A stretch of 64,000 nucleotides of DNA from Sandaracinus amylolyticus (GTDB lineage Bacteria > Myxococcota_A > Polyangia > Polyangiales > Sandaracinaceae), in the NCBI RefSeq assembly GCF_021631985.1, contig NZ_CP070225.1:3224001-3288000 (forward strand). The letters are read 5' to 3'. The position numbers and the translations under genes are program-made. This document shows, in pieces, positions 5,964-23,981 of the stretch. Position 1 is the stretch's first letter. Every line of letters starts with the position of its first letter. The notes under the pieces were generated by a model. It was not told the origin of the DNA. It saw only the letters and a list, made by a program, of their open reading frames with translations, and did not search any database.

Positions 5964-5992
5964 TTGACCACGTTTGAGCGCTGGCGTATTTG
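5964..5992 (+). promoter_or_regulatory. Sigma-70-like promoter for the lipoprotein at 6063
   Basis: TTGACC (5964-5969) and TATTTG (5987-5992) are separated by 17 bp. This predicts a start near 5999 and a leader of about 64 nt containing the GAGGAGG ribosome-binding site used by the gene at 6063. Such a clear match is unusual in this GC-rich window. Confidence 0.6.
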
Positions 5993-6062
5993 CGCCGCTT
6001 GTTCTGGGCGGCCGGGCAGGTGGCCGTGATTCGGGGGCAGCCCCGCTGAGGAGGATGTTCGG

Positions 6063-6713
6063 ATGGATCGGATGGCACTTCGACTTGCGATCGTGTGCGT
6101 CGCCCTGGTGGGCCTGGTCGCGTGCGGCGACGACGACTCGCCGGTGATCACATTCCCCGACGGCGGCGGCACGGACTCGGGCACCGGCGGTGGCACCGAC
6201 GCGGGCCGCACCGACTCGGGCACGCCCGACACCTGCCCGCCGGGCACGGGCCGCGCGCCCACCGGCAACGTCTGCGCGGCCGCGACCGCGACGTGCATCG
6301 AGGCCGCGACGACGCAGGAAGCGTACGAGGCGTGCATCGACGGCGATCCGATGGCGGACAACTGCGGCGCGTGCATCAGCAGCGAGCTGATCGCGACGTG
6401 CTCGGCGACGGGCGTCTGCGACAACGAGTTCGGCGAGATCGGCTGCTGCCTGAACGACGAGTGCGCGAGCGCGGCGGATCAGAACGCGTGCGTCGAGGCG
6501 GCGCTCGGCACCGGCGGCGCGTGCGAGGGTCAGTGGAACGCGTTCGTGACGTGCGCGAACACGGCGGCGAACGGCGGCCGCTGCGGCAACACCGACCTCT
6601 GCTTCATGGCGGCGGCGACGTTCGCGCCGAGCTTCGACGCGCGCAGCTTCCCGTTCTTCCCGGAGCTGCTCACGGCGGCCCGCGGCGCGCAGTGCGGCGC
6701 GCTGCTCCAGTGA
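6063..6713 (+). CDS. Cys-rich lipoprotein, 216 aa
   Basis: A signal peptide (MALRLAIVCVALVGLVAC, lipobox LVAC) is followed by an Asp/Gly/Thr-rich low-complexity linker of about 35 residues. A compact domain with about 16 cysteines comes next. The linker-plus-Cys architecture recurs in this window (4106, 39990, 60484). GAGGAGG lies 8 nt before the ATG at 6063. An in-frame ATG at 6072 would give a more usual signal-peptide length. It has its own promoter and a strong terminator, so it is probably a single-gene transcript. Function unknown; export to the cell envelope is likely. Confidence 0.82.
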   Translation: MDRMALRLAIVCVALVGLVACGDDDSPVITFPDGGGTDSGTGGGTDAGRTDSGTPDTCPPGTGRAPTGNVCAAATATCIEAATTQEAYEACIDGDPMADNCGACISSELIATCSATGVCDNEFGEIGCCLNDECASAADQNACVEAALGTGGACEGQWNAFVTCANTAANGGRCGNTDLCFMAAATFAPSFDARSFPFFPELLTAARGAQCGALLQ

Positions 6714-6842: not shown

Positions 6843-7550
6843 ATGTCCGCACGCACCGTCATCGTCGGCGACGTCCACGGCTGCCTCGACGAGCTCGAGC
6901 GACTCCTCTCGCAGATCGCCCTCACGCGCGACGATCGCCTGGTGATGGTCGGTGACCTCGTCGCGAAGGGACCGGAGTCGGTGGGCGTCGTGCGGCTGCT
7001 GCGCGAGCTCGGCGCGCAGTCGGTGCTGGGCAACCACGACGCGAGCCTGCTGCGCCTCCGCCGCGATCCCGGCGCCGACGTGAACGACGCGCTGAAGAAG
7101 GCGGCGCGCAAGCTCGACGAGCCCGAGTGGGCATGGCTCGAGGCGCTGCCCTATACGATCTCGCTGCCGGAGCACCGCGCGCTCGTGGTGCACGCGGGGC
7201 TGGTGCCGGGTGTCCCGCTCGATCGCCAGAAGCCCGAGGACATGCTGACGATGCGCTCGATCCGCGAGGACGGCACCGCGAGCAAGAGGCTCGACGACGG
7301 CACGCCGTGGGCGCGGCTCTGGGTCGGTCCGCAGCACGTCTACTTCGGGCACGACGCGGTCACCGGGCTGCAGCAGCATCCGTTCGCGACCGGGCTCGAC
7401 AGCGGCTGCGTCTACGGTGGCCGCCTCACCGCGTGCGTGCTGCCGCAGCGCGAGCTGGTGTCGGTGAAGGCGAAGCGCGTCTACGCCGAGCCGGGCAAGG
7501 CGATCGCGGCGCGGCACGCGAGCGAGAGCCAGAAGCCCAAGAAGAAGTGA
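6843..7550 (+). CDS. PPP-family metallophosphatase (ApaH/PrpE-like)
   Basis: A 235-aa calcineurin-like phosphoesterase with the PPP signature in order: GDVHG at residues 9-13, GDLVAKGP at 37-44, GNHD at 63-66, then VVHAG near residue 117. These residues coordinate a dinuclear metal centre in Ser/Thr phosphatases and in symmetrical Ap4A hydrolases. The short length and architecture fit bacterial PrpE/ApaH-like enzymes; the substrate (phosphoprotein or dinucleotide) cannot be told from sequence. The C-terminus ends in a Lys-rich tail. The Rieske gene follows after 2 bp, so the two are probably co-transcribed. The ATG at 6843 begins two residues before homology. Confidence 0.88.
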   Translation: MSARTVIVGDVHGCLDELERLLSQIALTRDDRLVMVGDLVAKGPESVGVVRLLRELGAQSVLGNHDASLLRLRRDPGADVNDALKKAARKLDEPEWAWLEALPYTISLPEHRALVVHAGLVPGVPLDRQKPEDMLTMRSIREDGTASKRLDDGTPWARLWVGPQHVYFGHDAVTGLQQHPFATGLDSGCVYGGRLTACVLPQRELVSVKAKRVYAEPGKAIAARHASESQKPKKK

Positions 7551-20184: not shown

Positions 20185-22788
<2,604 letters not shown>

Positions 22789-22880
22789 CGCGCGCGAGGA
22801 TAGACGAACGCGCGTCAGTCCGCGCGCGCGCAACGCGCGGTGGTCTGGCGCACCACGCCGAGCTCGCGCGTCGCGATCGT

Positions 22881-23170
22881 GCGGGTGGGTGATCGCGGAC
22901 GAGAGCACCGGCCGGCGGGCGTGCGGGGAGGTGATCGCGGACGAGAACACCCACCCGGAAGCGCGCGGGTGGGTGATCACGGACGAGAACACCCACCCGG
23001 AAGCGCGCGGGTGGGTGATCACGGACGGACACACCCGCCCGGAAGCGTGCGGATTGGTTGCTCGCGCGCGAAACACCCACCGGGAAACGCGCGGGTGGGT
23101 GATCGCGGACGGACACACCCGCCGGGAAGCGCGCGGGTGGTCGATCGCGCGGATCGACCACCCGGGGATC
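22881..23170. repeat. Array of seven 42-bp hairpin repeats
   Basis: Seven units with a 42-bp period start at 22881, 22923, 22965, 23007, 23049, 23091 and 23133. Units 2-4 and 6 match well; units 1, 5 and 7 are divergent. The best unit has arms CGGGTGGGTG and CACCCACCCG around a 14-nt loop, so each unit is itself a hairpin. Unit 7 is a perfect 12-bp hairpin (23135-23163, arm GGGTGGTCGATC, 5-nt loop). The array begins at the stop codon of the minus-strand gene at 23169 and reaches about 90 bp from the start of the lipoprotein gene. There are no spacers, so it is not CRISPR. This accounts for the 380-bp gene-free stretch 22789-23168. Confidence 0.9.
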
Positions 23171-23858
23171 ACCCCGCGGCGGGCGGCGGGCGATCGCCCG
23201 CGTCGTCGTCCTCGTCGCGCCCGCGGCGGGGCGCGCGCACGGTATCGAAGAAGAGGTCCTGCTGCTCGCGATCGCGCGGGAAGCGCTGGCGGATGACGCT
23301 CGCGGACACGTCGTACGCGCGGCAGAAGTCGTCGCGGGTCGCGAGCTCGTTCGCGTAGGCCTGTCCGAAGGCCTGGGCGGCGGTCGCGCGGGCGGCGAGC
23401 GCTGCGTCGAGGCTCGCCACGGCGTTGGTGAGGCGGGGCAGGTGCTCGGCGCGCAGCGGCTCGGCGGCGCCGAAGGCGGTGAGGCGCTGCAGGACGCGGC
23501 GGGCGGCCGCGCTCTGAGCGGCGGCGCGCGGCGTCACCTCGGCGGCGATCCCCGCCGGGAAGATCGCGCTCGCAATCTCCCCGCCGCGGCCGCGATCGAG
23601 GGCCTCGGCGGCGCTGCGGAGGGCGCGCAGCTCGAGCTCGACCTCGCGCTCGGCGAAGCGCACGAGGACGCGGGGCTCGATCATCGCGAGCTCGGCCGAG
23701 GCGCGGACCGCGGCGGCAGCCACCAGCGCCGCATGCACCGGCTCGAACGACGCGACGAGATCCGCGAAGGCCGCGCCCGCACGACGGAGAGCGGCAAGGT
23801 GGAAGCGCCCCAGTGGGTCGAGGCGCGACGACGAGAGATCGGGAGTGGGCATCTGCAT
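23169..23858 (-). CDS. Hypothetical Ala/Arg-rich helical protein
   Basis: I do not recognise a family. The 229-aa product is strongly helical, rich in Ala, Arg and Glu, with no signal peptide. Long amphipathic stretches occur (VELELRALRSAAEAL, SAAARRVLQRLTAFG) and a charged C-terminal tail ends in DDDAGDRPPPAAG. The start is uncertain: ATGs at 23858 and 23852 are only 6 bp apart, and no clear ribosome-binding site is visible; in-frame codons up to 23948 are Arg/Pro-rich and unlikely. Its 3' end runs straight into the 42-bp hairpin array. Confidence 0.6.
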   Translation of the reverse strand: MQMPTPDLSSSRLDPLGRFHLAALRRAGAAFADLVASFEPVHAALVAAAAVRASAELAMIEPRVLVRFAEREVELELRALRSAAEALDRGRGGEIASAIFPAGIAAEVTPRAAAQSAAARRVLQRLTAFGAAEPLRAEHLPRLTNAVASLDAALAARATAAQAFGQAYANELATRDDFCRAYDVSASVIRQRFPRDREQQDLFFDTVRAPRRGRDEDDDAGDRPPPAAG

Positions 23859-23981
23859 GCGATGGAGGCTCGCACGCGCGAGGAGAGGCGCGGAAGGGGG
23901 GCGACGACCGGCCCGACCGCGAAGCGATCGTAAGTGCACGCCGGGCACGGTGTCGGGCCGGATCGACTAGACGTTCGGGGC

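Follow-up and report, generated by a model that had tools for sequence, protein, structure and literature searches.

The array and its flanking genes

The window, a stretch of 64,000 nucleotides from the genome of the soil bacterium Sandaracinus amylolyticus, carries a tandem array in the gene-free gap between the start of a MopE-repeat gene at 22788 and the end of the next gene at 23169, both on the minus strand (Table 1). TRF reports a period of 42 bp, 6.4 copies, 81% matches and a score of 315 for 22881-23149, against a best score at any period of 107 in 300 dinucleotide-preserving shuffles of 22700-23300 (601 bp). Units start at 22882, 22924, 22966, 23008, 23050, 23092 and 23134, so that all steps are exactly 42 bp with zero indels, and adjacent units abut directly. 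The description given by the sequence-only reading, seven 42-bp units without spacers in a gap free of genes, is therefore correct. A CRISPR array was rejected because the units abut and leave no unique spacers.

Table 1. Features in and around the array of the window
Feature	Positions	Strand	Details
Gene downstream of the array, lipoprotein-like	20185-22788	-	MHARLLLVLSLSVLVACGDDD; five Cu-binding_MopE stretches (PF11617)
Spacer between the array and the MopE-repeat gene	22789-22880		92 bp; neutral yardstick
Six 42-bp units, imperfect inverted repeats	22881-23133		arms CGGGTGGGTG / CACCCACCCG; starts 22882-23092
Terminal unit, perfect 13-bp hairpin with a 5-nt loop	23134-23164	-	related to the array units
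Gene upstream of the array	23169-23948	-	259 aa from GTG or 229 aa from ATG at 23858

Each unit had also been read as an inverted repeat. The arms are present, but their match is imperfect in several units (a mean of 8.0 of 10 positions paired over seven units), and CGGGTGGGTG can pair with CACCCACCCG either within its own unit or in the neighboring one. Fold z-scores of -7.1 and -7.8 for the array are inflated values, because shuffling also destroys the tandem repetition. In an Rfam search the only matches were two microRNA models, one scoring 22 bits (cut-off 108) and the other 21.8 bits (cut-off 60), and a known RNA family was rejected on this basis.

The terminal unit forms the hairpin CGGGTGGTCGATC / GCGCG / GATCGACCACCCG, which is perfect, as had been noted, and 13 bp long rather than 12; it lies 4 nt from the TGA stop codon (23169-23171, minus strand) of the neighboring open reading frame, whose product has no Pfam match. 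A GC-rich hairpin placed directly after a stop codon is shared with intrinsic terminators that lack a U-run: no U-run follows the hairpin, CGCGCTTCCC coming next on the minus strand, and a terminator scan gave no match there, the promoter and terminator scan being otherwise uninformative. The terminal hairpin most probably serves the upstream gene as its 3'-end or termination hairpin. The likeness to such terminators extends to the terminal unit alone, whereas the other six units are diverging extras.

Elsewhere in the window, positions 1366-2332 hold an 18-bp unit (CGAGGCGGTCTCGATGTC) in 53.7 copies with 95% matches, a long low-complexity repeat that is probably coding.

Copies of the window family and comparison between species

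We searched for the window family in its own genome (G000; 10.96 Mb in two contigs) and in others, including a sister genome of the same genus (G008). A second window-family array lies at C1:3390382-3390613 of G000, 31 bp past purA, and here too a perfect hairpin adjoins the stop codon. Beyond these two loci, the remaining matches in G000 have E values of at least 0.009 and span at most 63 bp, which rules out a single sequence family dispersed everywhere. Among 10 genomes of the same taxonomic family, one other, G008, carries window-family arrays, two in number. The expectation of further copies in the genome is thus borne out by the purA array and the two in G008, and many arrays of other families, described below, add to them. 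Across 289 genomes of the class, 12 give a match, with pieces of at most 58 bp outside the genus.

An orthologous array occupies the same place in G008, flanked by the same two genes. Over 280 bp it differs from the window array by 37 substitutions (13.2%; 86.8% identity) and zero indels, and 13 of the 37 are concentrated within 17 bp of one unit. By codon position the substitutions number 15, 11 and 11, and the window array is therefore not coding. Between the two genomes, DNA identity reaches 96.7% in the upstream gene (23169-23948) and 93.4% in the MopE-repeat gene (first 800 bp); it falls to 85.9% in the gene-free spacer of 92 bp and stands at 98.75% in the 80-bp stretch containing the terminal hairpin (23121-23200). 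Since the array value lies close to that of the spacer and well below that of the hairpin stretch, the array drifts as spacer does while the stop-codon hairpin is kept. The window array evolves like ordinary spacer, and conservation between the two species, the absence of which the sequence-only reading had listed as counting against it, appears limited to the terminal hairpin.

That reading had further suggested that changes in the arms preserve pairing. In four window-family arrays, tests of arm covariation gave p values of 0.17, 1.0, 0.13 and 0.26, none of them significant, and 0.02 when all 26 units were pooled. We reject strong covariation, as pairing is not clearly above that of shuffled arms in any single array; covariation being weak, any RNA function of the window array is hypothetical.

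In the window-family array at G008:C1:6129199-6129499 (locus L036; at 6129267), the core appears by eye to be inverted relative to the linker, and the outer units have diverged with the 42-bp spacing still exact. The same locus holds, at 6982-7197, two near-identical 117-bp copies, each with a perfect palindrome, TCGAGCATCGAAGATGCTCGA.

A class of arrays with units of about 42 bp

The survey for tandem arrays covered five segments of G000 totaling 1.67 Mb, together with 0.40 Mb of G008. Each place contributed a single array, which had to have a TRF score of at least 80, at least 2.5 copies and a period of 15-100 bp; gene boundaries came from a purpose-written codon-usage caller rather than from annotation. 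Periods of 40-44 bp occur in 15 of 39 non-coding arrays and in 0 of 47 coding ones (Fisher P = 1.2e-6), and this peak is present in each genome alone (9 of 27 non-coding arrays in G000 and 6 of 12 in G008). Periods of 20-22 bp account for 8 of the 39 non-coding and 3 of the 47 coding arrays, and those of 82-86 bp for two non-coding arrays. Within each array, be its unit 41, 42 or 43 bp long, the spacing hardly varies.

For the most part, units at different places show no sequence relationship. Thirteen family consensus units yielded no common motif, their commonest 4-, 5- and 6-mers falling below the 95% point of the shuffled maximum, and a common binding motif across these families was rejected by this k-mer test. 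CGTC is found in 5 of the 13 units and GTAG in 1, counted anywhere in the unit irrespective of the stem.

Consensus units of the class tend to fold. The mean fold z is -1.13 for 20 arrays of 40-44 bp, compared with +0.63 for 10 coding arrays (P = 0.002) and approximately zero for 22 other non-coding arrays (P = 0.01). Four of the 20 lie above zero and five more between 0 and -0.6; with four above zero, palindromy is common in the class and not universal.

A query with eight families found at least 11 loci in G000 and at least 16 in G008, eight of these being the seeds; the counts are lower bounds, because 40 candidates were scored per genome. Five of the loci were inspected: one is a site already sampled, and the other four are arrays with periods of 41-43 bp, three of which sit in convergent gaps. 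When nine families were used to query 115 genomes of the order, two genomes matched, both of this genus. A third genome of the genus, a fragmented 6-Mb assembly in 820 pieces, gave no match to these families.

The 2.07 Mb of both genomes contain 21 arrays with a period not divisible by three. A small control, 372 kb from one genome of the same taxonomic family, contains one such array. Approximately 2.5 arrays would be expected in that control, and one period-42 array was seen, which is of low complexity and less than 800 bp from a contig start. A second control, 1.35 Mb from 80 diverse bacterial loci (matches of a PurA scan, mostly in distant bacteria), contains four arrays of this kind; the three of them whose period exceeds 12 bp have periods of 14 to 16. 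We conclude that the window array is one member of a sequence-diverse class of arrays, with units of about 41-43 bp, in two Sandaracinus-like genomes.

Two adjoining 42-bp arrays at 5991-6345 of locus L061 have units that seem, by eye, to be related in inverted orientation. One gene gap, the same in both species (locus L058, 10862-11028, and G008:C1:4171238), holds next to an array of 41-42 bp a tandem repeat of 81-83 bp that contains a GACCAC..GTGGTC palindrome.

Placement at gene ends and turnover between species

Sixteen gaps between genes hold an array of 40-44 bp: 9 of 101 convergent, 7 of 449 same-strand and 0 of 269 divergent gaps. Under Fisher tests, which assume that gaps are independent, convergent gaps are enriched (P = 2.6e-5, and P = 6e-5 when only gaps of at least 200 bp are counted) and divergent gaps depleted (P = 0.002). 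Arrays thus cluster at gene 3' ends, and the 3'-end placement read from the window alone holds for the class. A palindromic array of 40-bp units (TCGCGCGAAATGGCCATTTCGCGCGA) at G008:C1:4182849-4183690 has a diverged counterpart in G000; the stretch directly before it is RNase P RNA-like, as we take it.

Several sites carry an array in one species and none in the other. The G000 array at 3419991 faces a 77-bp gap in G008, and the G008 arrays at 4339188 and 4391182 face 49 bp and 82 bp in G000. The second window-family array of G008, which follows an acyl-CoA-dehydrogenase-like gene, has a short gap as its G000 counterpart, with no array. At some array-less counterpart gene ends a simple hairpin alone is found.

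At no fewer than three sites both species have arrays of the same or nearly the same period and changed sequence. One is the purA site, where G008 likewise has a 42-bp array (TRF period 42, 5.7 copies) of different sequence; the second is G000 3358500 with G008 4171660; and the third is a 22-bp array, at G000 3470778 and G008 4061212. In the second pair both stem arms differ and the loop orientation is, by eye, opposite, and the hairpins remain. Arrays are gained and lost between the two species, or place and period are kept while the sequence is replaced.

Discussion

We propose, with moderate confidence, that the window array belongs to a fast-turnover, REP/BIME-like satellite that is tolerated at gene ends, here beside a conserved 3'-end hairpin. 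Quasi-palindromic units would probably often be seeded by, or copied beside, hairpins at gene ends; slippage or template switching would then enlarge and homogenize the arrays, and units may occasionally be copied to other loci. Arrays would persist where neither promoter nor coding sequence suffers. In the window, the stop-codon hairpin would perform the 3'-end work for the upstream gene, and, if the array itself has any effect, it may resemble the one proposed for BIMEs, namely a soft bidirectional transcription barrier or a topological buffer between gene ends. The array as a whole may thus terminate transcription or buffer topology. The interpretations offered by the sequence-only reading (a multi-hairpin 3' UTR, a small RNA, a protein-binding array or a transposon-like repeat) are thus partly supported.

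Plain neutral slippage would not by itself predict spacing that stays exact and free of indels at 13% substitution, nor a period common to unrelated families. Also to be set against the proposal are the units that lack palindromy, the missing common motif among 13 families and the third, fragmented genome of the genus, which matched none of these families. Forty-two base pairs would correspond to four helical turns at 10.5 bp, and periods of 21 and 84 bp are also seen. A simpler alternative to helix geometry is that the size of the parent hairpin sets the period.

REP/BIME elements are palindromic units of 20-40 bp that occur in tandem clusters, located for the most part near 3' ends and in gaps whose genes converge or share a strand, as described in the part of the account consulted here (PMC3733652). 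The arrays reported here resemble them in having palindromic units (in the window family) in extragenic space at gene 3' ends. They differ in comprising many unrelated unit families with one common period, and in occurring as arrays rather than as single elements. No RAYT gene was found in the two genomes, and GTAG and CGTC, counted anywhere in the unit, do not recur consistently. The high number of dispersed single copies that marks REPs is not a feature of the window family, which has two array loci in G000. Other traits by which REP/BIME elements are recognized are a RAYT (Y1) transposase gene in the genome, an unpaired GTAG or CGTC tag at one end of the hairpin, and binding of gyrase, IHF or Pol I.

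Two other repeat systems invite comparison. Borgs, archaeal extrachromosomal elements, carry genome-specific, fast-evolving tandem repeats of unrelated sequences that arose independently; their intergenic unit lengths are mostly not multiples of three, and the repeats are perfect copies, enriched in A, about half of them within open reading frames, according to the relevant portions of one report (PMC9879509). Genome-specific, independent and rapid repeat turnover is common to both systems, whereas the units described here are diverged, mostly GC-rich and often quasi-palindromic, and form a non-coding class at gene ends with a narrow range of periods. Bacterial minisatellites or VNTRs of the MIRU type are tandem intergenic units of tens of bases that turn over in copy number; they differ from the present arrays, in which one unit length extends across many unrelated families with a strong 3'-end bias. 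A search of one collection of papers for 42-bp, myxobacterial and convergent-gap tandem repeats found nothing on such arrays, and the portions of the S. amylolyticus genome paper available to us mention repeat searches for CRISPR and IS only.

The foremost rival, tentative and on balance rather improbable, is that the arrays are functional multi-hairpin terminators or insulators, read from either strand, in which structure is kept and sequence is not. Placement after stop codons and in convergent gaps, perfect hairpins adjoining the stop in the window and purA arrays, self-complementarity above that of both coding and other non-coding arrays, and the orthologous site where both stem arms have changed and hairpins remain are all consistent with it. 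Yet at certain of these sites the gene end is array-less in the sister species, in some cases with a simple hairpin only, the window hairpin has no U-run, covariation is weak and divergence is spacer-like.

A more ambitious account, which we consider unlikely, posits a bacterial satellite-DNA system confined to one genus, in which some process or binding protein would build or keep arrays of unrelated sequence. Only unit length (four, two or eight turns) and position at the gene 3' end would be specified, and the role of the arrays would be that of periodic buffers, topological or transcriptional, whose sequence is replaced and whose hairpin loops are flipped between species. Eukaryotic satellite monomers, which follow nucleosome length, would offer a parallel to arrays specified by unit length.

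Less probable again is a reading of the arrays as DNA to which a nucleoid protein or a topoisomerase binds at sites on one helix face (4 x 10.5 = 42 bp), with geometry selected and sequence free. The periods of unrelated sequences, which group at 40-43, 20-22 and 82-86 bp, spacing that is almost exact in each array, the 41-bp and 43-bp ones included, and a location between convergent genes, a setting in which positive supercoils should accumulate, would fit such sites. Against this, the 13 families have no common motif, an array's own spacing of 41, 42 or 43 bp is also explained by inheritance through duplication, and most convergent gaps have no arrays, which moreover come and go.

Classical REP/BIME elements moved by a RAYT transposase are a very unlikely source of the arrays. 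The arrays share with REPs the short palindromic units, the location outside genes at 3' ends, the tandem clustering and the presence of dispersed copies (in the part of PMC3733652 drawn on), but the RAYT model PF01797 matches neither genome, with a positive control in 5 of 14, and on this ground we reject RAYT-borne REPs; the window family has hardly any single dispersed copies, and neither GTAG nor CGTC, sought anywhere in the unit, is common to the 13 families. Scarcely credible is a coding array, that is, an N-terminal extension of the MopE-repeat gene made of 14-residue repeats within ORF 20185-23172, which is open in both genomes and agrees with a unit length divisible by 3 and zero indels: we reject it because the 37 substitutions are not concentrated at one codon position. 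In addition, the array lies upstream of the lipoprotein signal, which starts at 22788, and periods of 41 and 43 occur elsewhere in the class.

The class of arrays described here carries a warning, in that a striking hairpin array at a single locus may sample a genome-wide process and not regulate its neighbors. It also raises a testable question, namely whether the period is set by DNA-helix geometry, by RNA hairpin size or by an amplification enzyme. Satellite-like DNA is generally regarded as scarce in bacterial genomes. Our data describe numerous tandem families of unrelated sequence that have a unit length and a genomic address in common, so far in one genus, with turnover between sister species.
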